DNA of 64,000 nt, from positions 3,287,958 through 3,351,957 of the forward strand of contig NZ_JAKVOI010000001.1 of the NCBI RefSeq assembly GCF_022482905.1, read 5' to 3'. Positions within the stretch are counted from its first letter, which is position 1; each line of letters opens with the position of its first letter. Shown piece by piece: positions 1 through 51,190 of the stretch. The stretch comes from Clostridium sp. GTDB lineage: Bacteria > Bacillota > Clostridia > Clostridiales > Clostridiaceae. The notes beneath the pieces were generated by a model. The model was not told where the DNA came from, did not search any database, and worked only from the letters and a program-made list of their open reading frames with translations. The position numbers and the translations under genes were made by a program.

Positions 1-1308
1 GGAAAAAATCATGAATGTAATGTAAAAAGTATGATAATTGAAAATAGTGCTATTAAGAAAATACCTGATTTATTAAAAAAATTAGAATTTAAAAATATAT
101 TGATGATAGCAGATACTAATACTTATAAAGTTGCAGGGAAAAATGTAGAAACTATTTTGGATCAAGAGAAAATAAATTATAAAAGATTCATATATAGAAC
201 GAAGAAGGATGAATTGCTGGTTCCGGATGAAAATGCCATAGGCAGTCTTTTTACCAAGGTTGAGAAAGGTATGGATTTAATTCTTGCAGTAGGTTCAGGA
301 GTATTAAATGATCTATCCAAATTTGTAAGTTACAGGCTTGGTATTGATTGTATTATTGTAGCTACAGCACCTTCAATGGATGGATTTATATCAGATGGTT
401 CTTCACTTATAGTAGATGATCTTAAAAGTACATTTGTATCGCAACCTCCGAAAGCTGTTGTTGGAGATATAGACATTTTAAAAGAAGCCCCTATGGATAT
501 GATTCTGGCCGGTTTTGGAGACATAATAGGGAAATATTCTGCTCTGTGTGATTGGAAATTAAGCAAAATAGTAAATGATGAATACTATTGTGATGTTGTT
601 GTAAAGATGGTAAAAGATTCATTGAATAAATGTGTTGGAAGTACAGATGGAATAAAAAAGAGAGAAGACAGTGCAATAAAGAATTTAATGGAAAGTTTGC
701 TGCTTACAGGAATTGCCATGAGCTATATAGGTAATTCAAGACCGGCTTCTGGAGCCGAACATCATATGTCGCATTATTGGGAATTGATGTTTCTATTCCA
801 GGGAAAAAAGGCCTTATTTCATGGAACAAAAGTGGGAATTTCTACAGTTTTAATTACAAAATTAAGAGAATTATTAGAAGAGGAAAAATTGAATTTTGAT
901 AAAGCTGTAGATAACATAGGTTCTTTTGATGAAAAGGAATGGGAATCAGAAGTTACTAAATTATATGAAAAAGCTGCTCCGGAAATTATAGCTGTAAGTA
1001 AAAAAGAAGGGACAAACTCTACTGCGACAAGATTGAAAAGAGTTGGTGTAATAAGAAAAAAACTTGATGAAGTTATAGAAAGTATGAAAGACACACCTTC
1101 CTCCGAGGAAATAAAGTCAATTTTAAGGAGAGCAGGTGCACCTGCATTACCTAATGAAGTAGGTATAAGTGACAAAATAGTTTTTAACAGTGTGTTAATG
1201 GCAAAGGAAGTTAGAATAAGGTATACTGTTTTACAGCTTTTAGGAGATTTTGGACTGCTGGAGAAATTTGCACACGAGATTATGAATTATTTAAAAGAGG
1301 AGAAATAA
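1..1308 (+). CDS. AraM-like sn-glycerol-1-phosphate dehydrogenase family protein, 5' end outside window
   Basis: Member of the AraM/EgsA (glycerol-1-phosphate dehydrogenase) branch of the metal-dependent alcohol dehydrogenase superfamily; characterised members interconvert dihydroxyacetone phosphate and sn-glycerol 1-phosphate with NAD(P)H. Seen: a nucleotide-binding stretch AVGSGVLNDLSKFVS, the substrate region APSMDGFISDGSSL, and candidate metal ligands Asp in GFGDIIGKYSAL, His in SGAEHHMSHYWE and His in LFHGTKVG. The first ATG is at 31, but the frame is open from base 1 and the residues before it (GKNHECNVKS) align without gaps with the paralogue at 48972 (GKKHSIALED), so about 25 N-terminal residues lie upstream of the window. 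The next gene, a HAD phosphatase, starts 1 bp after the stop, and a glucitol-type PTS follows. True substrate unknown: it may be a polyol phosphate rather than glycerol 1-phosphate. Confidence 0.85.
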   Translation, partial: GKNHECNVKSMIIENSAIKKIPDLLKKLEFKNILMIADTNTYKVAGKNVETILDQEKINYKRFIYRTKKDELLVPDENAIGSLFTKVEKGMDLILAVGSGVLNDLSKFVSYRLGIDCIIVATAPSMDGFISDGSSLIVDDLKSTFVSQPPKAVVGDIDILKEAPMDMILAGFGDIIGKYSALCDWKLSKIVNDEYYCDVVVKMVKDSLNKCVGSTDGIKKREDSAIKNLMESLLLTGIAMSYIGNSRPASGAEHHMSHYWELMFLFQGKKALFHGTKVGISTVLITKLRELLEEEKLNFDKAVDNIGSFDEKEWESEVTKLYEKAAPEIIAVSKKEGTNSTATRLKRVGVIRKKLDEVIESMKDTPSSEEIKSILRRAGAPALPNEVGISDKIVFNSVLMAKEVRIRYTVLQLLGDFGLLEKFAHEIMNYLKEEK

Positions 1309-1309
1309 T

Positions 1310-2152
1310 ATGTATGATTTAAGCAAAAGAGAGTCTGCATTTAAGAATAAAGATGAAGTGAAAAAGATACTTGAAAATGTCAAGTGTTATGTTATGGATT
1401 TAGATGGTACTGTTTATTTGGGAGATAAAATTTTAGAGGGTTCTATAGAATTTTTTAGAACTCTCCAAAAATATAATATCAAGTTTAAATTTTTTACCAA
1501 CAATTCATCTAAAAACGCACAGATTTATGTTGATAAAATTACAAAAATGGGTTATCCGATAACAGAAGATATGATGCTTATTTCTAACCATGTTATTATA
1601 CAGTATATAAAGAAAACGTTACCCAATAAAAAAGTATTTGTTTTAGGCAACAAATACTTGAAAGAAGATTTTATAAAAGCAGGAATCAATATCGTGGAAA
1701 AAGATGCTGATGTTGTAGCAGTAGGGTTTGATACATCCTTATGTTATGAAAATGTTTCAAAAGCGTGTGATTTTATAAGAAATGGAGCAATATTTTTAGG
1801 AGTAAATCCAGATTTCAATTGTCCAACTGAAAATGGCTTTATACCGGATTGTGGTTCAATTTGCAAGATGATTACAGCATCAACGGGAGTTTTACCGGAA
1901 TTTTTCGGAAAACCAACACATCATACTCTAGAGTATATATTGAATTATACAGGTTTGAGGGAAAGCGAAATAGCGATGATAGGAGATAGATTATATACAG
2001 ATATTGCAATTGCTAGAGGAAATGATCTGATAAGTATTCTTGTATTGACAGGAGAGACCAAACTAGAGGATTTAAAGGATTCTGACATACAGCCAAGATT
2101 AATATTTAATTCATTAAAAGATTTAAAAGACACTTTAGAAAAAATATTCTGA
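1310..2152 (+). CDS. HAD-superfamily (NagD/pNPPase-like, IIA) phosphatase
   Basis: Predicted cytoplasmic sugar- or polyol-phosphate phosphatase of the HAD IIA type. Motif I is DLDGTVYLG (near residue 31, nucleophile Asp), motif II lies in FTNNSSKN, the cap contains NPDFNCPTENGFIPDCGS, and motifs III/IV are the GKP and IGDRLYTDIAIA stretches; 280 residues is normal for NagD-type enzymes. It starts 1 bp after the AraM-like gene with GAGGAG just upstream, so the two are translationally close. A closely similar gene at 50352 also directly follows an AraM-like gene. Family known; the physiological phosphate ester is not predictable from sequence. Confidence 0.88.
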   Translation: MYDLSKRESAFKNKDEVKKILENVKCYVMDLDGTVYLGDKILEGSIEFFRTLQKYNIKFKFFTNNSSKNAQIYVDKITKMGYPITEDMMLISNHVIIQYIKKTLPNKKVFVLGNKYLKEDFIKAGINIVEKDADVVAVGFDTSLCYENVSKACDFIRNGAIFLGVNPDFNCPTENGFIPDCGSICKMITASTGVLPEFFGKPTHHTLEYILNYTGLRESEIAMIGDRLYTDIAIARGNDLISILVLTGETKLEDLKDSDIQPRLIFNSLKDLKDTLEKIF

Positions 2153-2213: not shown

Positions 2214-2756
2214 ATGTTAACTACTTTAGCAAATGCTGCGCAGGGATTTATAGGACTGTTTCAAGAAGGAGGAAAAAGCTTTACCGGGATGGTTACCGGA
2301 ATATTGCCAACACTAGTTGTACTCATCACAGCTGTCAACTCTCTCATCAAAATAATAGGTGAAGAAAAAGTCAACAATTTGGCAAAAGCTTCATCCAAAT
2401 ATCTCATAACAAGATACACGATATTCCCTATTATAGCTACTTTCTTTTTGACAAATCCTATGGCGCAGACTTTTGGACAATTTTTAGATGAAAAGTACAA
2501 ACCTGCTTATTATGATTCAACTATTTCTTTCTGCCATGCAATTACAGGACTATTTCCGCATGCAAATCCTGCCGAATTGTTTGTATACATGGGTATAGCA
2601 CAGGGAATAACAAAACTTGGACTGCCTGTAGGTGAACTTGCAGTGAGGTATTTTCTAGCCGGCATTATAGTTATATTGATCAAGGGCATACTTACAGAGA
2701 GAATTACATTCTACCTTCTCAATAAGAAAGAAAGAGAAAAGGCTGAGCTGGCATGA
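2214..2756 (+). CDS. PTS system glucitol/sorbitol-type EIIC component
   Basis: Membrane subunit of the glucitol (Gut/Srl) PTS family, 180 residues, matching the length of SrlA/GutA. It has several hydrophobic segments and the family stretch FPHANPAELFVYMGIAQG. It works with the EIIB subunit encoded 43 bp downstream to import and phosphorylate a polyol. A ribosome binding site (GGGGG) precedes the ATG. No sorbitol-6-phosphate dehydrogenase (SrlD) or glucitol EIIA (SrlB) gene is visible nearby; instead an AraM-like dehydrogenase and a HAD phosphatase lie upstream, so the substrate may differ from sorbitol. Confidence 0.88.
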   Translation: MLTTLANAAQGFIGLFQEGGKSFTGMVTGILPTLVVLITAVNSLIKIIGEEKVNNLAKASSKYLITRYTIFPIIATFFLTNPMAQTFGQFLDEKYKPAYYDSTISFCHAITGLFPHANPAELFVYMGIAQGITKLGLPVGELAVRYFLAGIIVILIKGILTERITFYLLNKKEREKAELA

Positions 2757-2799
2757 AATTAATAAAATTGTATGAATCCATAAAAATAGGAGGGTTATC

Positions 2800-3807
2800 A
2801 TGTATAATACAGTAAAAGTTGAAAAAGGAAGAAGTGGCTGGGGAGGACCTCTCTATATAAAACCGGAAGGAAAAAGGAATAAAATTGTATGTGTAACGGG
2901 ACAGGACATGCATCCTGTAGCATATAAGCTTGCCCAAATGACCAATGCAGAACTGGTAAATGGATTTGCTACTGGAGTTCCTGATGCGGAGATAGCTGCA
3001 GTTGTCATAGATTGTGGAGGTACTGCAAGATGCGGAGTTTATCCAAAAAAAGGTATACTTACTATAAATGTAAAATCTGTTGGACAGTCAGGTCCTCTTG
3101 CAAAATTTATGACGGAGCAGCTGTATGTATCTGATGTAAATGAATCCTGTATTTCCATCCATGAGGGCAATTCACCGGTATCATCAGCTCCAGAAGTGGA
3201 AAAAGCAAAAACAAATATTCCTGATGATAAGGCAAAGAAAAGTGTGGCGGCAGCTGTTGAAGCGGCACCAAAGAAGAAAGAGAATTTTATAGTAAGGCTT
3301 GGGAAAGGTGTTGGAGATGTAATAGGAAAGTTCTATGAAGCAGGAAGAGAGACGATTGATTCAATAATAAAAAACATACTTCCATTCATGGCTTTCGTAT
3401 GTATGATAATTGGAATTATAAACAAGACAGGTATAGGAAATATTATTGCAAAGGCAATCTCACCGGCAGCAGGTTCTCTTGTAGGGCTGATCATAGTGTC
3501 AATTATCTGTACACTGCCCATACTTTCACCTATACTCGGACCTGGAGCAGTTGTGGCTCAGGTAGTGGGAGTTCTTGTAGGAACGGAAATAGGCAAAGGA
3601 CATATACCACCGCATTTTGCACTTCCAGCATTGTTTGCAATAGATGCACAGGTAGGATGTGATTTCATACCTGTTGGATTGAGCCTTGCAGAAGCGGAAC
3701 CTGAAACAGTGGAAGTGGGGGTTCCGGCAGTTCTATTCTCAAGAGTTGTAACAGGACCTCTATCTGTTATAATAGCTTATTTTGTAGGAGTTGGTTTGTA
3801 TGAATAA
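2800..3807 (+). CDS. PTS system glucitol/sorbitol-type EIIB (with second membrane domain)
   Basis: SrlE/GutE-like subunit, 335 residues. The N-terminal cytoplasmic EIIB domain (about 1-120) starts with the family signature VEKGRSGWGGPL and holds the probable phospho-cysteine region DCGGTARCGVYPKK; a linker rich in Ala, Lys and Glu (about 125-165) leads to a C-terminal membrane domain with GPGAVVAQVVGVLVGTEIG and FALPALFAIDAQ. It accepts phosphate from a glucitol EIIA that is not encoded in the window. The gene appears intact and ends immediately before a decayed RpiB/LacAB-type isomerase, which suggests a deletion removed downstream genes of an original polyol operon. Confidence 0.88.
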   Translation: MYNTVKVEKGRSGWGGPLYIKPEGKRNKIVCVTGQDMHPVAYKLAQMTNAELVNGFATGVPDAEIAAVVIDCGGTARCGVYPKKGILTINVKSVGQSGPLAKFMTEQLYVSDVNESCISIHEGNSPVSSAPEVEKAKTNIPDDKAKKSVAAAVEAAPKKKENFIVRLGKGVGDVIGKFYEAGRETIDSIIKNILPFMAFVCMIIGIINKTGIGNIIAKAISPAAGSLVGLIIVSIICTLPILSPILGPGAVVAQVVGVLVGTEIGKGHIPPHFALPALFAIDAQVGCDFIPVGLSLAEAEPETVEVGVPAVLFSRVVTGPLSVIIAYFVGVGLYE

Positions 3808-43469: not shown

Positions 43470-46061
43470 ATGCAGAATTTAAGTAATAGCCTTAGTAGAA
43501 AAGAGAGGGTATACTTTAAGTTAAAGGAACTTAGCGCTGCTCTATCCAGAAATGAAATTACTTCTTCTGAAAGAATTGGATTTGAAACCAGATATGTAGC
43601 ACAGCAATTAAATATAAATAGGAATAATGCCAGTAAGGAACTGAACGTTCTTGTAAAAGAAGGTAAAGTGATTAAGATTCTGGGCAAACCTGTATTATAT
43701 ATGGATAAAGAATATATAGAAAAAAAGTTGAACATAAGAATCAAGAATCCCATAATAAAAAATTTCGGCGATATTGTAAATAAGAAATCTGTTGCCTCAA
43801 AAGGCAGTAAACATAGTGACGGATCTTTATATAATAAATCAATTAATAATATATTTGATAATCTCATTGGTTCGAATGAAAGCTTGAGGTCTCAGGTAAA
43901 ACAGGCAAAGGCAGCTATATTATACCCTCCAAAAGGATTACATACTCTGCTTATAGGTCCTACAGGAGTAGGAAAGACTACTTTTGCTGAAGTAATGTAC
44001 AGATATGCAATAGAGAAAGGAAGATTGAATGGGAATTCTCCCTATGTAGTTTTTAATTGTGCTGATTATGCTGAAAATCCACAATTGCTTTTATCACATC
44101 TTTTTGGACATTCAAAGGGAGCTTTTACAGGGGCAGATACGGATAAAAAAGGACTGATAGATAAATCAAATGGTGGAATATTGTTTTTAGATGAAGTTCA
44201 CAGACTTCCTGCTGAAGGACAGGAAATGCTTTTTTCCATAATGGATAGAGGTACTTATAACAGATTGGGTGAATCTGAAAATACAAGAAGAGCTGACGTG
44301 CTTATTATTGCTGCTACAACTGAAAATCCGGAATCCGTTATGTTGAATACATTTTTGAGAAGAATTCAAGTTGTTATAAAGCTTCCAAGCCTGGAGAACA
44401 GAACTTTAAGAGAAAGAATGGATTTTATATGTCAGTTTTTTAGCGAAGAGTCTATAAAAATAAAAGCACCGGTAAAGATACCCAAGGAAGTTTTAAAAAT
44501 ACTTTTATTATATAAATGTTCAGGAAATATAGGACAGTTGAAAAATGATATAAAGCTCATATGTGCAAATGCATTTTTGGATTATATTACGGAAAACAAG
44601 GATTATGTGGAAGTAAAAGTATCCCAGCTATCTGACAGGTTTAAAGATGGCTTGTTTTCAATTGATAATAAGCGATATGAATTGGCTCAGAATTTCAATC
44701 TTAACGATTTTGGTAACATAGTATTTGAGGGAAAAAATGATAAATCGAATGCAAAGATAAATAATATCTTTGTATATGATGACTATAAAATCAAGGATGA
44801 TTTATATGAAACCATGCTGCAGAATGCACAGAAGTTTTATGAAAGTGGTATGCCTACCAGTGAGATCAAACAGAATATGAATAAAAAAATAAAAGAGTAT
44901 TTCACTAATAATCAAGGGAATAATATGTCGGAAAAAGTTACTTTAAAAAAAGAAATACTTTCTAAAATAGTGACTCCTGAAATTGTAGATATTGTACAAA
45001 AATCCTTTGAAGAAAACGATTATAAATTTGATGGGGCAGATTCTAAAATAATATATAGCCTGGCACTCCATATAGAGACTCTTTTGGAGAGAATTAATCT
45101 AAATCAAATTGTGATATACCCGAATATAGAAAAGGCATATAGTGAACATGAGAAAGAATACGGCGTAGCAGTTACCATAAAGAAAAAACTTGAAGAAAAA
45201 TTTTCAGTTGAAATTCCAGAAGATGAAATAGCATTTATTACCATGTTTATATATTGGGTGAATGAGAGCAGGGCTAAAGGAAACATACAGGTCTTGGTTA
45301 TAGCGCATGGATACGGTACTGCTACAAATATGGTAGAAGTTACAAAAACACTTTTGGGATATAATTGTATCCATGCGCTTGATATGCCATTGGAGGAAAA
45401 AGTTGAAGTGATTTTGGAAAAGGCAATTCAAACTGTAAAGAAAATAGATAAAGGCAAAGGTGTATTGCTTCTAGTAGATATGGGTTCTCTCACTACTTTT
45501 TCCGATATAATTACAAATAAAACAGGGATACCGACAAAATATGTAAAGATGGTAAGTACACCCATGGTTATTGAAGCGGCTAGAAAAGCCATGGAACCTA
45601 ATATGAACCTGGATGTACTGGTAGACAGCGTAAAAAATATGAGTCAGCTTATAGGAGAAAGAGTGAAGATTGACAATCCTCCTGTCCAAATTGATAATTT
45701 CAAAATTGGATATCATGATAGAACAATCAATATGCTTGAAGGTATGCTGACTTTCCTTGATGTAAAAAAGGTATCTGAGGTTATGGATAAAGTTATCAGA
45801 AATATAGCGCAGGATATTCATAAAAATGTAGATGATATATTATATATAAAATTTTTATTCCACTGCTCATGTATGATAGAGAGAGTCATAAGAAATTATC
45901 CTCTGCCGTATAAAAATGTCTTGAGTATTAAAAATGAAAATAGGAATCTTTTTTCTGTAGTTAAAAGTAGATTTAGTTTAGTAGAAGAAGTTTTTGGAAT
46001 ACAGGTTCCTGACTCAGAATTTGCGTATATAGTCGAGATGCTGAATTCCGGATTTAATTAG
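43470..46061 (+). CDS. LevR/ManR-type sigma-54 activator with PTS regulation domains
   Basis: 863 residues. N-terminal winged helix (about 10-70), AAA+ sigma-54 domain with Walker A GPTGVGKT (near 163), contact loop KGAFTGADTD (near 219) and FLDEVHRLP (near 240), PRD1 (about 515-595, His in LALHIETLLER), an EIIA-Man-like domain with VLVIAHGYGTAT (phospho-His near 612) and a C-terminal PRD2 (about 760-860, His in FLFHCSCMIER). Phosphorylation by HPr or EIIB sets its activity. The downstream mannose-family PTS has a perfect -24/-12 promoter and direct-repeat UAS, so it is surely the target. Confidence 0.92.
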   Translation: MQNLSNSLSRKERVYFKLKELSAALSRNEITSSERIGFETRYVAQQLNINRNNASKELNVLVKEGKVIKILGKPVLYMDKEYIEKKLNIRIKNPIIKNFGDIVNKKSVASKGSKHSDGSLYNKSINNIFDNLIGSNESLRSQVKQAKAAILYPPKGLHTLLIGPTGVGKTTFAEVMYRYAIEKGRLNGNSPYVVFNCADYAENPQLLLSHLFGHSKGAFTGADTDKKGLIDKSNGGILFLDEVHRLPAEGQEMLFSIMDRGTYNRLGESENTRRADVLIIAATTENPESVMLNTFLRRIQVVIKLPSLENRTLRERMDFICQFFSEESIKIKAPVKIPKEVLKILLLYKCSGNIGQLKNDIKLICANAFLDYITENKDYVEVKVSQLSDRFKDGLFSIDNKRYELAQNFNLNDFGNIVFEGKNDKSNAKINNIFVYDDYKIKDDLYETMLQNAQKFYESGMPTSEIKQNMNKKIKEYFTNNQGNNMSEKVTLKKEILSKIVTPEIVDIVQKSFEENDYKFDGADSKIIYSLALHIETLLERINLNQIVIYPNIEKAYSEHEKEYGVAVTIKKKLEEKFSVEIPEDEIAFITMFIYWVNESRAKGNIQVLVIAHGYGTATNMVEVTKTLLGYNCIHALDMPLEEKVEVILEKAIQTVKKIDKGKGVLLLVDMGSLTTFSDIITNKTGIPTKYVKMVSTPMVIEAARKAMEPNMNLDVLVDSVKNMSQLIGERVKIDNPPVQIDNFKIGYHDRTINMLEGMLTFLDVKKVSEVMDKVIRNIAQDIHKNVDDILYIKFLFHCSCMIERVIRNYPLPYKNVLSIKNENRNLFSVVKSRFSLVEEVFGIQVPDSEFAYIVEMLNSGFN

Positions 46062-46287: not shown

Positions 46288-46303
46288 TGGCACAAATATT
46301 GCT
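46288..46303 (+). promoter_or_regulatory. Sigma-54 (-24/-12) promoter of the mannose-family PTS operon
   Basis: TGGCACAAATATTGCT is a perfect match to TGGCAC-N5-TTGCW; GG (46289-46290) and GC (46301-46302) are 10 bases apart. 69 bp before the EIIA start. Confidence 0.92.
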
Positions 46304-46371
46304 TTTAAAGAATATCGAGATTAAAAATATATCTAGCTTTTATAAATAACTATATAGGAAGTGGTGATTTG

Positions 46372-46788
46372 ATGATTGGGGTACTGGTAATAACACATGG
46401 TAACTTTGCAACCGAGATTTTGAAAACAGCTGAATTAATTATAGGAGAACAGAAACAGGCAGCTTCTTTAGGACTGCATTATGGTGACAGTATTGAAGAT
46501 TTTTCTTTGAAGGTTAAAGACAGTATAGAAAGTCTTGATGATGGAGAAGGAGTGCTGGTATTTGCAGATCTTTTTGGTGCCAGTCCATATAATGCTGCAG
46601 CATTTAGTGCGAATAAAGTAAAAGATACTGATTTTAGGTGTATAACTGGAGTTAATCTACCGATGCTTTTGGAAGCACTTACTAGCAGAAATGGATCAAA
46701 TCTAAATGATCTGACGGAATTATGTATTAAATCAGGAAATGAGGGAATAAAAGAATTATTTAATCAAATTAAAATAAATAGGGAGTGA
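46372..46788 (+). CDS. PTS mannose/fructose/sorbose-family EIIA
   Basis: 138-residue phosphocarrier with the phospho-His in VLVITHGNFATEIL and VFADLFGASPYNAAA. ATG 46372 (AGGAAGTGG upstream) is preferred to TTG 46369. First gene of the sigma-54-driven operon EIIA-EIIB-EIIC-EIID-AraM-like-HAD. Takes phosphate from HPr and passes it to EIIB. Confidence 0.92.
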   Translation: MIGVLVITHGNFATEILKTAELIIGEQKQAASLGLHYGDSIEDFSLKVKDSIESLDDGEGVLVFADLFGASPYNAAAFSANKVKDTDFRCITGVNLPMLLEALTSRNGSNLNDLTELCIKSGNEGIKELFNQIKINRE

Positions 46789-46794
46789 AGTATT

Positions 46795-47268
46795 ATGTTG
46801 AATATTGTTCTTGCAAGAATTGATGACAGACTAATCCATGGACAGGTGGCCACGGCGTGGTCAAAGGTTACTAAAGCCAATAGAATTATTGTAGTAGATG
46901 ATGAAGTGGCAAAAGATTCATTTATGGAGATGGTTTTAAAGTCTGCAGCACCAAGTTCTCTGTCCGTTGATGTACTTACAGTAAACGATGCCGCAAAAGT
47001 GATAAATGGTGATGATACAGGAGAAAAGGTAATTATACTTGTAAAGACACCATTGACCGTTGTTTCCCTTATAAATTCCGGTGTTGATATAAAAGAACTT
47101 AATTTGGGAGGCATTGGAGCAAGACAGGGCAGAAAACAATTATATAAAAATATTTCTATTTCGGAGGAAGAAAGAGCAGCTTTCAAACAACTTATTGACA
47201 AAGGTGTAAACGTATTTTTGCAAATAGTTCCTGATGCAAAACAGATAGCTGTAGCTAAACTTCTTTAA
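46795..47268 (+). CDS. PTS mannose/fructose/sorbose-family EIIB
   Basis: 157 residues; the N-terminal ARIDDRLIHGQVATAW contains the phospho-His of this family (near 15) and LNLGGIGARQGRK follows. 6 bp after EIIA. Phosphorylates the incoming sugar or polyol at the membrane. Confidence 0.93.
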   Translation: MLNIVLARIDDRLIHGQVATAWSKVTKANRIIVVDDEVAKDSFMEMVLKSAAPSSLSVDVLTVNDAAKVINGDDTGEKVIILVKTPLTVVSLINSGVDIKELNLGGIGARQGRKQLYKNISISEEERAAFKQLIDKGVNVFLQIVPDAKQIAVAKLL

Positions 47269-47305
47269 CATAGATATAAAATAAATTTGAGGAGATGAAT
47301 AGTAT

Positions 47306-48064
47306 ATGCATATTTCTTTGCTACAGGCAATACTAATCGGTATATTTTATTATATTTCATGGAGTCCATGGTTTACTTATGTTGGATTCTTTACATTTAA
47401 CAGGCCGCTGCTTGCCGGATTCATAACTGGAATAATACTGGGACAACCGCTTGAAGGTGCATTGATAGGAGCTGGAATAAATGTTATCTATCTTGGATTT
47501 ATATCTGCAGGAGGAGCTCAAATGGGAGACCCATCTTTTGCAGGTTATATTGGTACAGCATTGGCTATAGCATCCAATCTGGATGTGAAAACTGCTATGG
47601 CAATATCGGTTCCTCTTGGAACTATTGCAACTGTATTGTGGATAGGAAAAATGACGATCAATTCATTCTTTGTTCACTGGGCTGACAAGGAAGTTGAAAA
47701 AGGTAATATTGACAAGTTGCCTTTTATAAATGTAGTACCTCCACAAATTGTGCTGTTTTTACTTAGTTTTATTCCTGCAATGCTAGTAGCTTATTATGGC
47801 CCGACTGCAGTAGATGGAATGCTGAAGGTTCTAAGTCCGAATGTATTACATGTGTTTAACGTAATAGGAGCTATGTTACCTGCACTGGGAATCGCAATGA
47901 ACCTGAAGCTAATAGGAAACTCTTTTACAATGCCATTCTTTGTTTTGGGAATATTGATGTCCGTATACTTCAAGCTGGATATAGTCATTATTTCTATAAT
48001 AGGTGTTGTGCTTGCACTGACTATAACTTCTATAAAAAATACCAATTCGGCCGCAAAGGCATAG
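47306..48064 (+). CDS. PTS mannose/fructose/sorbose-family EIIC
   Basis: 252-residue membrane subunit with RPLLAGFITGIILGQPLEGALIG-type start and MGDPSFAGYIGTALAIAS. AGGAG before the ATG. Forms the translocation channel with EIID. Confidence 0.92.
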   Translation: MHISLLQAILIGIFYYISWSPWFTYVGFFTFNRPLLAGFITGIILGQPLEGALIGAGINVIYLGFISAGGAQMGDPSFAGYIGTALAIASNLDVKTAMAISVPLGTIATVLWIGKMTINSFFVHWADKEVEKGNIDKLPFINVVPPQIVLFLLSFIPAMLVAYYGPTAVDGMLKVLSPNVLHVFNVIGAMLPALGIAMNLKLIGNSFTMPFFVLGILMSVYFKLDIVIISIIGVVLALTITSIKNTNSAAKA

Positions 48065-48085
48065 AAATCAATGTAAGGAGGAATA

Positions 48086-48946
48086 TTGATGAAGGATGCA
48101 AATATTGCAGTTGACAGTAAAAATGACAATACAGAAGGTGAAAAAAAACTTAACAGAAAAGATATAATCAAAAGCTGGCTTAGATGGTTTATGTTTGCCC
48201 AATCCAATTACAACTATGAAAGATTGCAGGCTACAGCCTTTGCTCACTCAATGCTGCCTGTTATAAAAAAATTATATAAAGATAAAGATGAAAGGAAAGC
48301 AGCTGTTCAGAGACATCTTTCATTTTTCAATACAGAACCAATCTGTGGCTCTGTAATACATGGCGTAACTATAGCCATGGAAGAGGAAAAATCCAATAAC
48401 AAGCCAATAACCGATGAAAGTTTGAATGCTATAAAGACAGGACTTATGGGACCTCTTGCAGGAGTTGGTGATACGCTTACCCAGGGTGTTATAACCCCTA
48501 TTGTTCTTGCAATATGTATTGGTATAACAAATACACAGAATATACTGGGACCTATAATATTTTTGGCAGCCCAGTATGCCATAATGACGACTATTTCCTT
48601 TACTATGTGGACAAATGGATATAAGTTTGGTAAAAAGGCAGTCGAGGAAATATTAAAAGGAGGCAAAATCAACAAGGTAATTGAAGCAGCATCTCTTTTG
48701 GGAACTCTTGTAATGGGGGGACTTGTTGGTAGATTTGTAAATTTACAGACTTTTATAACTTTCAAAATGGGTAAAGTAAATTTCAGTCTTCAAAAAGATC
48801 TTTTGGATAAGTTGATGCCGGGTCTTATACCACTTGTATTGACACTATTGGTTTTGCATCTGGTAAAAAAAGGTGTTTCACCAATAAAATTGATGGGAAT
48901 TCTTATAGTTCTTGGAGCAGCTACCGGAATATTGGGAATATTCTAA
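48086..48946 (+). CDS. PTS mannose/fructose/sorbose-family EIID
   Basis: 286-residue EIID with SNYNYERLQATAFAHSMLP, FFNTEPICGSVIHGVTIAMEE, GLMGPLAGVGDTLTQG and a hydrophobic C-terminus. An N-terminal 25-residue charged extension precedes the family start. Completes the permease. Confidence 0.92.
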   Translation: MMKDANIAVDSKNDNTEGEKKLNRKDIIKSWLRWFMFAQSNYNYERLQATAFAHSMLPVIKKLYKDKDERKAAVQRHLSFFNTEPICGSVIHGVTIAMEEEKSNNKPITDESLNAIKTGLMGPLAGVGDTLTQGVITPIVLAICIGITNTQNILGPIIFLAAQYAIMTTISFTMWTNGYKFGKKAVEEILKGGKINKVIEAASLLGTLVMGGLVGRFVNLQTFITFKMGKVNFSLQKDLLDKLMPGLIPLVLTLLVLHLVKKGVSPIKLMGILIVLGAATGILGIF

Positions 48947-48971
48947 AATATAGTACAAGGAAGTGTTTGCT

Positions 48972-50351
48972 ATGGAGTTAACAATAGAAAATGTGAGTAA
49001 ATTACAGTTGAATGACTTTTTAAGAGATGACCTGAATTGCCAGTGTGGAAAAAAGCATTCAATTGCGCTGGAGGATGTAATAATTGAAGAAGATGCCATA
49101 AAAAAGATTCCGGATTTATTAAAAAAATATGGATTCAAGAAAGTACTTTTAGTTTCAGATGAACATACTTATGATGCAGCAGGAAAACTTGTAGCAGAAA
49201 CTCTGGATAAAGTTAATTTTGGGTATAAAGAGTTTATATTCAAAATCAAAGAGGACCTTGTACCAGATGAAGAAGCTGCAGGAAAACTTCTTATACAGAC
49301 AGATGAAGATATAGATGCCATGGTTACAGTTGGTACTGGAACTTTAAATGATTTGGCTAAATTTGTAAGCCATAAATTGAGAATACCATCTATTATTGTT
49401 GGTACAGCTCCATCTATGGATGGATTTGCATCAAATGGTGCAGCACTTATAGTTGGAAATTTGAAAATAACTTATGATGCTGCAGTGCCAAAGGCAATTA
49501 TTGGTGATGTAAATGTATTGAAGAGATCACCGGAAGATATGATATTGGCTGGCTTTGGTGACATAGTCGGCAAGTATTCGGCTCTGAACGATTGGAAATT
49601 GAGTAAGATTATAAATGAAGAATACTATTGTGATGTTACAGTTAAAATGGTTGAGGATTCTTTAAAAAAGTGTATAGAAAATGCAGAGGGAATAAAAAAC
49701 AGAGAATCCGAAGCAATAAAAAATCTAATGGAGGCGTTGGTCTTGACAGGTATAGCCATGAGTTTTGTAGGAAATTCAAGACCGGCTTCAGGTTCTGAAC
49801 ATCATTTGGCCCATTACTTTGAGATGATGCTTTTATTTGAAAACAAGAAAGCAATACTTCATGGAAGAAAAGTAGGAGTCAATACAGTCATAACTACAAA
49901 ACTCAGAGATATGCTTGCTAACAGCGATATTGATTTTGACAAATCCATATCTGATGCAAAGTCTTTTGATATGGATAAATGGACGAAAGACGTTAATTCT
50001 ACTTTTAAAGAAGCTGCCAAGGGAATTATTGAAATAAGTGAAAAAGACAAGACCACATCTATTCCAGAAAGACTTAAAAGAATTAAGAGGATCAGGGAGC
50101 ATCAGGAGGAAATTAAAAAAGTATTGAAAGAAGTTCCATCTACTGAAGAAATAAAGGATATTTTAGTAAAGGCAGGGGCACCAACTTTGCCTGAACAAAT
50201 AGGAATAAAAAATGAAGCTATTTTAAATGCTGTATTGATGTCCAAAGAGATAAGAACAAGATATACTGTGCTGAGTTTGTTGTCCGATCTTGGACTGCTT
50301 GAAAAATTTGCATATGGAATAGAAAAATATTTAGATGAGGTAAGTGATTGA
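48972..50351 (+). CDS. AraM-like sn-glycerol-1-phosphate dehydrogenase family protein (second copy)
   Basis: 459 residues, complete. ATG 48972 follows AAGGAAG; an earlier GTG at 48963 lies too close to that site. Closely related to the partial gene at 1-1308 along its whole length (for example AGFGDIVGKYSALNDWKLSK, NSRPASGSEHHLAHYFEM, LHGRKVG). It has a Cys-containing N-terminal stretch (LNCQCGKKH) shared in position with the first copy. Co-transcribed with a mannose-family PTS and followed directly by a HAD phosphatase. Family reaction: DHAP to glycerol 1-phosphate; the PTS context suggests it may instead oxidise an imported polyol phosphate. Confidence 0.87.
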   Translation: MELTIENVSKLQLNDFLRDDLNCQCGKKHSIALEDVIIEEDAIKKIPDLLKKYGFKKVLLVSDEHTYDAAGKLVAETLDKVNFGYKEFIFKIKEDLVPDEEAAGKLLIQTDEDIDAMVTVGTGTLNDLAKFVSHKLRIPSIIVGTAPSMDGFASNGAALIVGNLKITYDAAVPKAIIGDVNVLKRSPEDMILAGFGDIVGKYSALNDWKLSKIINEEYYCDVTVKMVEDSLKKCIENAEGIKNRESEAIKNLMEALVLTGIAMSFVGNSRPASGSEHHLAHYFEMMLLFENKKAILHGRKVGVNTVITTKLRDMLANSDIDFDKSISDAKSFDMDKWTKDVNSTFKEAAKGIIEISEKDKTTSIPERLKRIKRIREHQEEIKKVLKEVPSTEEIKDILVKAGAPTLPEQIGIKNEAILNAVLMSKEIRTRYTVLSLLSDLGLLEKFAYGIEKYLDEVSD

Positions 50352-51161
50352 ATGAATGATAAATCAATGGCAAATTTACTGAGAAGGATAAAATGTTTTA
50401 TATTTGATCTCGATGGAACAGTTTATCTCGGAAATAAACTTCTTGACGGCTCCATAGACTTCTTTAAACTTCTGGAAAAAGATAATATAAAATTCAAATT
50501 TTTCACCAATAATTCCTCTAAAAATGCAGGGGTGTATATAGAGAAGATAAGAAATATGGGATACAATCTGACAGATGATATGATGTTGATTTCAAATCAG
50601 GTCATAATAAATCATCTAAAAGAAAAATTCCTTAATAAAAATGTATTTGTACTGGGAAATAATTATCTAAAAGAAGATTTTAGAAGAGCAGATATAAAAC
50701 TTACAGAAAAAGATGTTGATATAGTTGTGGTTGGATTCGATACTTCTCTGGCATATGAAAATGTATCCAAGGCGTGTGAGTTTATAAGAAACGGGGCTGT
50801 ATTTTTGGGAGTTAACCCTGATTTCAATTGCCCTGTGGAGAATGGTTTTATTCCCGATTGCGGTTCAATATGTGCCATGATAACTGCATCTACCGGGGTA
50901 AAACCTGAATTCTTTGGTAAACCGTCCAGATATACATTGGAGTATATAATCAAGGATACTGGGCTTGACGAAAGTGATATAGCCTTTGTAGGAGACAGGC
51001 TGTATACGGATATTGCAATAGGAAAAGGAAATAATGCAATTACAATACTTGTGCTAACAGGAGAGGCTAAAAAAGAGGATCTACAGAATTCAGATGTAAA
51101 GCCAACTCTTATATTTGATTCTCTCGCACAGTTAAAAGATGTATTTGAAAAGTTATACTGA
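50352..51161 (+). CDS. HAD-superfamily (NagD/pNPPase-like) phosphatase, second copy
   Basis: 269 residues with DLDGTVYLGNKLLDGSIDFF, FTNNSSKNAG, GVNPDFNCPVENGFIPDCGS, EFFGKPSRYTLEYI and VGDRLYTDIAIGKGN. Nearly collinear with the protein at 1310. Its ATG follows the stop of the AraM-like gene without a gap, so the two are translationally coupled. Last gene of the operon, terminator follows at 51161. Confidence 0.9.
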   Translation: MNDKSMANLLRRIKCFIFDLDGTVYLGNKLLDGSIDFFKLLEKDNIKFKFFTNNSSKNAGVYIEKIRNMGYNLTDDMMLISNQVIINHLKEKFLNKNVFVLGNNYLKEDFRRADIKLTEKDVDIVVVGFDTSLAYENVSKACEFIRNGAVFLGVNPDFNCPVENGFIPDCGSICAMITASTGVKPEFFGKPSRYTLEYIIKDTGLDESDIAFVGDRLYTDIAIGKGNNAITILVLTGEAKKEDLQNSDVKPTLIFDSLAQLKDVFEKLY

Positions 51162-51190
51162 AAAGGGAGCCTTTTATTAGGTTCCCTTTT
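51161..51190 (+). terminator. Intrinsic terminator after the PTS-AraM-HAD operon
   Basis: Stem AAAAGGGAGCC (51161-51171) with GGTTCCCTTTT (51180-51190), one G-U pair, 8-nt loop; the 3' arm supplies the T run. Confidence 0.88.

Follow-up and report, generated by a model that had tools for sequence, protein, structure and literature searches.

An AraM-like dehydrogenase and HAD phosphatase pair in phosphotransferase operons of a Clostridium genome

In a window of 64,000 nucleotides from Clostridium sp. (assembly GCF_022482905.1, contig NZ_JAKVOI010000001.1, positions 3,287,958 to 3,351,957), genes for an AraM-like dehydrogenase and a phosphatase of the haloacid dehalogenase (HAD) superfamily stand side by side at two loci, each time within an operon for a phosphotransferase system (PTS). 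Searching the whole genome for both proteins (3.57 Mb on one contig, of which the window is a part) extended this to four pairs, two with galactitol-type (Gat) importers, one with a glucitol-type (Gut) and one with a mannose-type (Man) importer. The feature is real, conserved and larger than first noted, and we infer its function: four operons across three importer families point to a little-known route for using sugar alcohols, most likely one in which the PTS would deliver a polyol phosphate, the AraM-like enzyme would oxidise it and the HAD would dephosphorylate the resulting compound or a side product.

The two pairs in the window, B and C, are collinear paralogues, as an earlier note on this DNA had recognised; their AraM-like proteins share 56% identity (241/433) and their HADs 69% (184/268). 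That note was also right that the frames touch or nearly touch, with gaps of 0 nt in pair C and 1 nt in pair B, and right about the importers, a mannose-family EIIA/B/C/D set at 46369–48946 and a Gut EIIC/EIIB at 2214–3807, the latter two scoring over the cut-offs of NCBIfam equivalog models. The AraM gene of pair B is cut by the window edge and encodes 463 amino acids when complete (open reading frame (ORF) L012:9875–11266; L and G numbers are our handles for loci and genomes). Genome-wide, we found four AraM-like genes at 40–100% identity and four HADs at 68–100%, each HAD adjoining one of the AraM-like genes; two further AraM matches, at 21–23% identity, are distant glycerol-dehydrogenase-like proteins with no HAD match.

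The other two pairs, A (459 kb) and D (3373 kb), belong to the Gat-type operons. The EII sets of the paired operons are complete. The operon of pair A runs LevR, GatA, GatB, GatC, GpsA-like protein, AraM, HAD and, after the HAD, a zinc-dependent alcohol dehydrogenase (Zn-ADH); that of pair D, whose regulator and PTS genes were named through similarity to genes of pairs A and C, runs LevR, GatA, GatB, GatC, AraD, AraM, HAD, 2-hydroxyacid dehydrogenase and class II aldolase. The AraD of pair D scores over its cut-off. The aldolase, of the AraD/FucA kind, stays under every cut-off (best 143 bits; 126 bits with the ribulose-1-phosphate aldolase model), as does the GpsA-like protein of pair A, far under those for GpsA (110.7 against 257); a KN motif is kept in 19 GpsA-like proteins. 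Upstream of the pair B AraM lie a DRL-family oxidoreductase, a SorC-type regulator, a GutM-like ORF (assigned by eye) and Gut EIIA, and this oxidoreductase is the only one in the Gut operon besides AraM, with no short-chain dehydrogenase/reductase (SDR) or Zn-ADH. In the Man operon AraM and HAD are the only enzymes able to act on the PTS product, again with no SDR or Zn-ADH. None of the four operons holds an ara set (araA/araB/araD), pair D having AraD alone of these; an ara-like cluster elsewhere in the genome (L183, genes by eye) was absent from the places found by the AraM and HAD searches.

Pairs A and D (L011 and L014) look like a recent duplication, being 97% identical in AraM and 94% in HAD, and their flanking enzymes differ. 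Just 3' of the window, a polyol-like island (G000:C1:3352000–3382000, L013 and L014) carries two Gat-type PTS sets, one of them that of pair D, together with GpsA-like protein, class II aldolase, Zn-ADH, SDR and LevR-type activator genes. The DRL-family oxidoreductase near pair B (L012:6078–7382; PF21135, 213 bits), a family that we take to be DXR-like, is also present by similarity in the Gut-type loci L017 and L141.

In the Man operon, AraM and HAD both sit between a promoter-like and a terminator-like element and are therefore most likely co-transcribed with the PTS from a single promoter. The former is a sigma-54 −24/−12 site, TGGCACAAATATTGCT, the sole one with no mismatch in the window, placed between the LevR-type activator and EIIA; the latter is a hairpin directly 3' of the HAD stop that folds at −18.4 kcal/mol (z −5.9, equalled by none of 200 shuffles), the terminator pattern scan by itself being not above chance (2 in the region against 2.6 expected in shuffles). 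The activator, the presumed regulator of this operon, scores 586.5 bits with the NCBIfam DagR model, under its cut-off of 1400. A sigma-54-like site matching at least 8 of 10 consensus positions precedes EIIA in 27 of 43 cases among the surveyed loci, a set that has a few loci entered twice and also covers EIIA genes away from AraM; pair D has none at this threshold. For the AraM gene of pair C an alternative in-frame start, GTG 48963, exists; we preferred ATG 48972 because AAGGAAG sits just upstream of it.

The earlier note had left room for the pairing to be confined to this strain; a neighbourhood survey placed it in PTS operons of at least 17 of 206 genomes of the same family, the present one included. 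In these 206 genomes, AraM at E ≤ 1e-60 occurs in 33, at 50 places, and the HAD in 31, at 44 places. A HAD lies within 600 nt at 34 of the 50 AraM places and AraM at 34 of the 44 HAD places, so the pairing is not chance. Fetching 41 of the 46 AraM places outside the present genome and adding its own pairs A, B and D gave 44 annotated AraM ORFs. Of these, 28 are PTS-linked (19 Gat, 6 Man, 3 Gut), 27 of them with an adjacent HAD, and the 16 that have no PTS comprise 4 fused to a HAD, 3 adjacent to one and 9 without. Named carriers of the PTS-linked pair are Clostridium sp. cel8, C. tyrobutyricum, C. bowmanii, C. beijerinckii, Pelosinus fermentans, Lucifera butyrica, Catenisphaera adipataccumulans and Amedibacillus dolichus. 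In a class-wide sample, AraM at E ≤ 1e-40 was present in 83 of 291 genomes, with a PTS set beside it in none of the 18 further loci annotated (L165–L182, some on short contigs). A scan of viral contigs confirmed no relative among 68 candidate stretches.

For statistics and trees we used 136 distinct AraM sequences from 142 loci, counting identical sequences once; they do not include pair C of the window, L042, L082 and L013 have no AraM ORF, L109 and L110 were not annotated, and 18 new loci came from 20 class matches requested. The sample is biased, in that the best 80 of 578 relatives were kept in one search, and the trees are quick ones with support from the SH-like approximate likelihood-ratio test (SH-aLRT) only. 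A HAD is fused to AraM or lies within two genes of it in 33 of 39 PTS-linked cases against 18 of 97 others (Fisher p 7e-13, not corrected for relatedness); the remaining 79 of the 97, most of the set, are without PTS and HAD alike.

On the AraM tree the PTS labels need 10 changes, the least possible being 3, and the starred branches force at least three changes each for Gat, Man and Gut. A supported clade of 14 (99) mixes eight Man and five Gut loci, some of its inner forks being weak, and outside this Man/Gut clade fall two Man loci from Erysipelotrichia and two Gat loci from Pectinatus. Fused AraM–HAD ORFs, seven in number, belong to two supported clades (96 and 100). An FGGY kinase follows four of the seven, the one scanned (L148) being an L-ribulokinase (673 bits against a cut-off of 583), and near a fifth (L165) lies a gene for a xylulokinase (418 bits against 380); AraD is found in four Gat loci, namely pair D, L046, L053 and L074. 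The description of the pair as a portable module is supported: a single genome links it to three PTS superfamilies, one AraM clade holds Man and Gut loci side by side, and fusions occur in two clades. Four solitary AraM genes without PTS or HAD (L128, L132, L136 and L139) branch together within the Gat clade (their group has support 100), an apparent loss of the PTS link; ORFs of 122 and 187 amino acids adjoin AraM in L128, L136 and L139, not in L132.

Distances between AraM proteins and between their HADs are correlated (Mantel r 0.50, n = 53, the largest of 999 permutations reaching 0.21), with r of 0.84 among Gat loci, 0.68 among Man/Gut loci and 0.58 among those without PTS. Despite this correlation, we rejected strict co-evolution of the two proteins on the strength of clear partner swaps. 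In genome G366, a Gat locus (L129) and a Gut locus (L141) have HADs that are 94.2% identical beside AraM proteins that are 39.4% identical; Gat and Man loci of G365 give 80% and 37–40%, and Gat against Man/Gut loci of the present genome 68–69% and 35–39%. The balance is reversed when ten Gat loci of the C. beijerinckii type are compared with pair A, the AraM proteins being 48–50% and the HADs 40–43% identical. Because AraM and HAD identities disagree between loci, the pairing must have arisen more than once, with halves that were not inherited together, and the earlier note's proposal to look for independent trees has a divided answer, correlated distances on one side and swaps on the other. 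Since the HADs are alike across PTS types within a genome and swapped elsewhere, these comparisons suggest that AraM is specific to its locus and the HAD general-purpose.

The AraM-like protein of pair C has an Fe-ADH_2 domain and falls under the PRK00843 equivalog cut-off of 413 (235.6 bits), as do those of pairs B (218.6) and A (207.1) and of the arabinan-linked L160 (226.5), and for this reason we file it as AraM-like and not as sn-glycerol-1-phosphate (G1P) dehydrogenase. Its nearest solved chain is 9h4x (E 2e-60), a G1P dehydrogenase chain that we take to be B. subtilis AraM, followed by 3ce9 (named a glycerol dehydrogenase) and then the G1P dehydrogenase chains 4rfl, 4rgq and 5fb3. Residues D200, H280 and H300, presumably the Asp-His-His zinc ligands of its relatives, are 100% conserved in the Man/Gut and Gat groups, with the motif SRPASGxEHxxxH; across the 136 aligned proteins R273, H280, H284 and H300 are invariant and D200 is present in all but one. 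The spacing of R273 and H284 matches that of the phosphate-binding Arg and His of dehydroquinate synthase, and an equivalent of R273 is missing, by eye, in 3ce9 and in both glycerol-dehydrogenase-like proteins of the present genome. This pattern fits a phosphorylated substrate whose phosphate lies near the reacting carbon. An N-terminal CxCGxxH (window 49038–49058, residues 26–32 of the ORF from 48963) is kept in 128 of 136 AraM-like proteins (Gat 24/24, Gut 5/5, Man 9/10, others 90/97) and may be a metal or Fe–S site; the alignment to 9h4x begins after this region.

In the HADs, the catalytic residues D19, D21, T52, K190, D215 and D220 are conserved in 54 of 54 proteins. The pair C HAD falls under specific curated models (TIGR01457, 193 against 247.65; TK1734, 191.6 against 475; PRK10444, 125.5 against 368), and its nearest solved chains are 1vjr, 1pw5 and 3pdw. 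Homologues away from AraM, at 10 of the 44 family places, have mixed settings that indicate no one substrate. In L186 (G415) such a HAD adjoins a different iron-type alcohol dehydrogenase (PF00465, 181 bits), and likewise, by eye, in L188 (G375), so pairing of HAD-IIA proteins with iron-type dehydrogenases may be wider than AraM; an aldolase of the FBA type is also present in L186, as is, by eye, a DhaL-like gene, and the settings of the HAD homologues in L191–L194 include a TRAP-like transporter, likewise assigned by eye.

Table 1 Features of the two paired loci in the window
Feature	Coordinates	Strand	Evidence
AraM-like dehydrogenase, pair B (5' end outside the window)	1..1308	+	Paralogy to pair C
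HAD-IIA phosphatase, pair B	1310..2152	+	Paralogy to pair C, profile match
PTS glucitol-family EIIC, pair B operon	2214..2756	+	PF03608 263 bits; NF049923 245 bits, over cut-off
PTS glucitol-family EIIB, pair B operon	2800..3807	+	PF03612 and PF07663; NF049924 480 bits, over cut-off
LevR/DagR-type sigma-54 activator, 863 aa, with EIIA-Man and PRD domains	43470..46061	+	Pfam Sigma54_activat, PRD, EIIA-man
Sigma-54 −24/−12 promoter-like site	46288..46303	+	0 mismatches
PTS EIIA, mannose family	46369..46788	+	PF03610 93 bits
PTS EIIB, mannose/sorbose family	46795..47268	+	PF03830 174 bits
PTS EIIC, mannose/sorbose family	47306..48064	+	TIGR00822 129 bits, under cut-off 340
PTS EIID, mannose family	48086..48946	+	PF03613 317 bits
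AraM-like dehydrogenase, pair C	48972..50351	+	PF13685 118 bits; PRK00843 235.6 bits, under cut-off 413
HAD-IIA phosphatase, pair C	50352..51161	+	TIGR01460 133.2 bits, over cut-off 100.15
Intrinsic terminator-like hairpin with T-rich tail, ending the operon	51161..51190	+	Pattern scan and folding

Our preferred reading, which we hold tentatively and at somewhat less than an even chance, is that each PTS operon has AraM as its polyol-phosphate dehydrogenase and the HAD as the partner phosphatase, acting by way of a ketose 1-phosphate and a pentulose kinase. The PTS would import a sugar alcohol and phosphorylate its terminal carbon; AraM, a predicted zinc enzyme with the build of G1P dehydrogenase, would oxidise a secondary alcohol, most likely the one beside the phosphorylated carbon, to give a ketose 1-phosphate; the HAD would dephosphorylate this to the free ketose; and an ordinary pentulose kinase of the AraB or XylB type would feed the ketose back into the pentose phosphate pathway. 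That AraM acts as the dehydrogenase for the imported compound is probable because the Man operon of the window holds no other enzyme but AraM and HAD; none of the six family Man loci has another dehydrogenase in the operon, one of them (L127) having three unidentified ORFs after the HAD. Pentitols are indicated by the pentulose kinases beside fused AraM–HAD genes and by AraD in the four Gat loci. We infer the substrate (a pentitol or tetritol), the direction, the phosphate position and the order of AraM then HAD, and ribitol or D-arabitol would be the best stereochemical fit. In Fischer terms, G1P-like oxidation next to the phosphate would yield L-ribulose 1-phosphate from ribitol phosphate, and either D-ribulose or D-xylulose 1-phosphate from D-arabitol phosphate. 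A broader proposal, which we regard as unlikely, is that these operons follow a separate logic of polyol use through the PTS, with the phosphate beside the oxidised carbon, a ketose 1-phosphate made by an enzyme of the G1P dehydrogenase type and an interchangeable, dedicated HAD, so that only AraM would adapt to the substrate and any PTS superfamily could serve.

Several observations weigh against assigning AraM and HAD to polyol phosphates in this way. No activity is known for any PTS-linked copy; the activity reported for B. subtilis AraM is that of a G1P dehydrogenase (PMC5059525), and AraL, the HAD-IIA phosphatase encoded beside it, has weak, unspecific activity and is dispensable on arabinose (PMC3207120). 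Removing the PTS phosphate only to re-phosphorylate costs ATP. Six of the 39 PTS-linked AraM genes lack a HAD within two genes, two of these six having one within six ORFs, and in Pectinatus both Gat loci, L046 and L053, combine AraM with AraD and have no HAD (L053 ends soon after). The association of PTS with HAD was not significant in a tree-corrected test (6 independent pairs, sign test median p 0.375). At the fused gene of L155 the kinase is split over two ORFs and a Man-PTS set lies further upstream. The Erysipelotrichia Man loci L036 and L054 carry a Zn-ADH between EIID and AraM, and Gat operon A also has one, plus a GpsA-like protein, so that AraM need not be the sole dehydrogenase.

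A general HAD beside a specific AraM fits a permissive phosphatase, and equally the clean-up of a shared by-product. The keto-phosphate made by AraM might enter central metabolism directly, leaving the HAD to clear a compound common to all loci, either G1P that AraM makes from dihydroxyacetone phosphate (DHAP) or an accumulating polyol or sugar phosphate; we judge this somewhat unlikely. It would account for HADs that are interchangeable between loci (94% identity against 39% for AraM in G366, and the similar imbalance between Gat and Man/Gut loci of the present genome) and for PTS-linked AraM genes without a HAD, and detoxification was proposed for AraL by its authors (PMC3207120). However, the HAD seems to be more than an accessory that can be dispensed with, given its fusion to AraM in two clades and the exchange of HAD partners, and AraL was inactive on glycerol 3-phosphate, G1P itself not being reported in the available part of that paper. 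Also unlikely, in our estimate, is a reductive electron sink in which DHAP or a PTS sugar phosphate and NADH would give G1P or a polyol phosphate, from which the HAD would free glycerol or a polyol for excretion. Fermenting clostridia need electron sinks, dehydrogenase and then phosphatase is the usual order of polyol synthesis, and the reductive direction keeps its place because direction is unreadable from sequence; G1P formation is, moreover, the activity reported for B. subtilis AraM (PMC5059525). Yet from one PTS type to another AraM varies far more than the HAD, and a shared DHAP sink needs no locus-specific AraM, which makes the DHAP to G1P to glycerol version offered by the earlier note the less likely one. 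A sink would also leave the Man operon of this genome without an enzyme for a polyol, and the pair occurs beside arabinan and arabinose genes (L160, genes by eye), where the sugar is not reduced (PMC4428132).

That AraM is a true G1P dehydrogenase salvaging sn-glycerol 1-phosphate, its location in PTS operons being incidental, seems to us highly improbable. In several Clostridia, AraM genes without PTS do lie near genes for glycerophosphodiester phosphodiesterase (GDPD) and GlpA/GlpB-like proteins, as glycerophosphodiester breakdown predicts, but at least 17 genomes of the family have AraM beside PTS and HAD, in many cases with EIIA preceded by a sigma-54 site, and PTS-linked and GDPD-linked AraM occupy separate branches, though the Man/Gut clade closely neighbours two clades that contain GDPD. 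The loci with GDPD or GlpA/GlpB-like neighbours are L041, L059, L076, L079, L083, L085, L168 and L180, and L037, L038, L047, L092 and L174; their AraM proteins look as if they might salvage G1P. We also considered glycerol as the PTS substrate and gave this little weight: a GlpF/GlpK-like cluster is present elsewhere (L184, by eye), and neither AraM nor the GpsA-like protein reaches the cut-offs for glycerol-phosphate enzymes.

The assignment of AraM and HAD to polyol phosphates, if true, would mean that many Clostridia genes named 'glycerol-1-phosphate dehydrogenase' are misnamed, and would affect arguments that trace archaeal-type lipids in bacteria via AraM/EgsA. The reported formation of G1P by B. 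subtilis AraM leaves the place of its gene in an arabinose operon unexplained, and the PTS-linked copies offer a clean setting, with AraM and HAD nearly the sole enzymes after uptake. Titles and abstract starts found in the open-licence literature described no PTS-linked AraM–HAD operon, and within that literature the PTS form of the pair appears undescribed. The earlier note, which knew of no pathway coupling AraM and HAD to PTS permeases, stands to this extent; the pair as such is already in print (PMC3207120, PMC4428132). The AraM–HAD pair is known from ara operons, and its PTS-linked version is a new variant.

Among known systems, EgsA shares the fold family, the zinc ligands and the SRPASGxEH motif with the window AraM, which differs in its score (235.6 bits against the equivalog cut-off of 413) and in its PTS context; the 9h4x chain is shorter (414 residues), its match starting after the N-terminal CxCGxxH region. 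Closest in gene content are AraL–AraM of B. subtilis and the HAD and G1P dehydrogenase pair of Geobacillus: the same two families are encoded side by side in an operon for sugar catabolism, the HAD motifs of AraL are also those of the window HAD, AraL has low specificity with kcat/KM near 100 per M per s (PMC3207120), and a table of the Geobacillus arabinan cluster lists a HAD hydrolase and a G1P dehydrogenase on neighbouring lines (PMC4428132). The B. subtilis operon, araABDLMNPQ-abfA, differs in having araL before araM and in encoding transport of arabinose oligomers and no PTS (PMC3207120). In T. maritima, araMDBW belongs to the AraR regulon and is induced on arabinose; araM there adjoins araD and araB, and the available text names no PTS with araMDBW (PMC3750489). 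The nearest parallel on the importer side is atlABCD of Bacillus methanolicus, an operon with a Gat-type D-arabitol PTS and an arabitol phosphate dehydrogenase, which thus likewise joins a galactitol-family PTS to a polyol-phosphate dehydrogenase (PMC6685057). Its dehydrogenase is related to that of E. avium and was assayed with xylulose 5-phosphate, and its second gene is galactitol-1-phosphate 5-dehydrogenase-like, whereas Gat operon A of the present genome has AraM-like and GpsA-like dehydrogenases together with a HAD, a phosphatase being nowhere mentioned in the available text on atlABCD.

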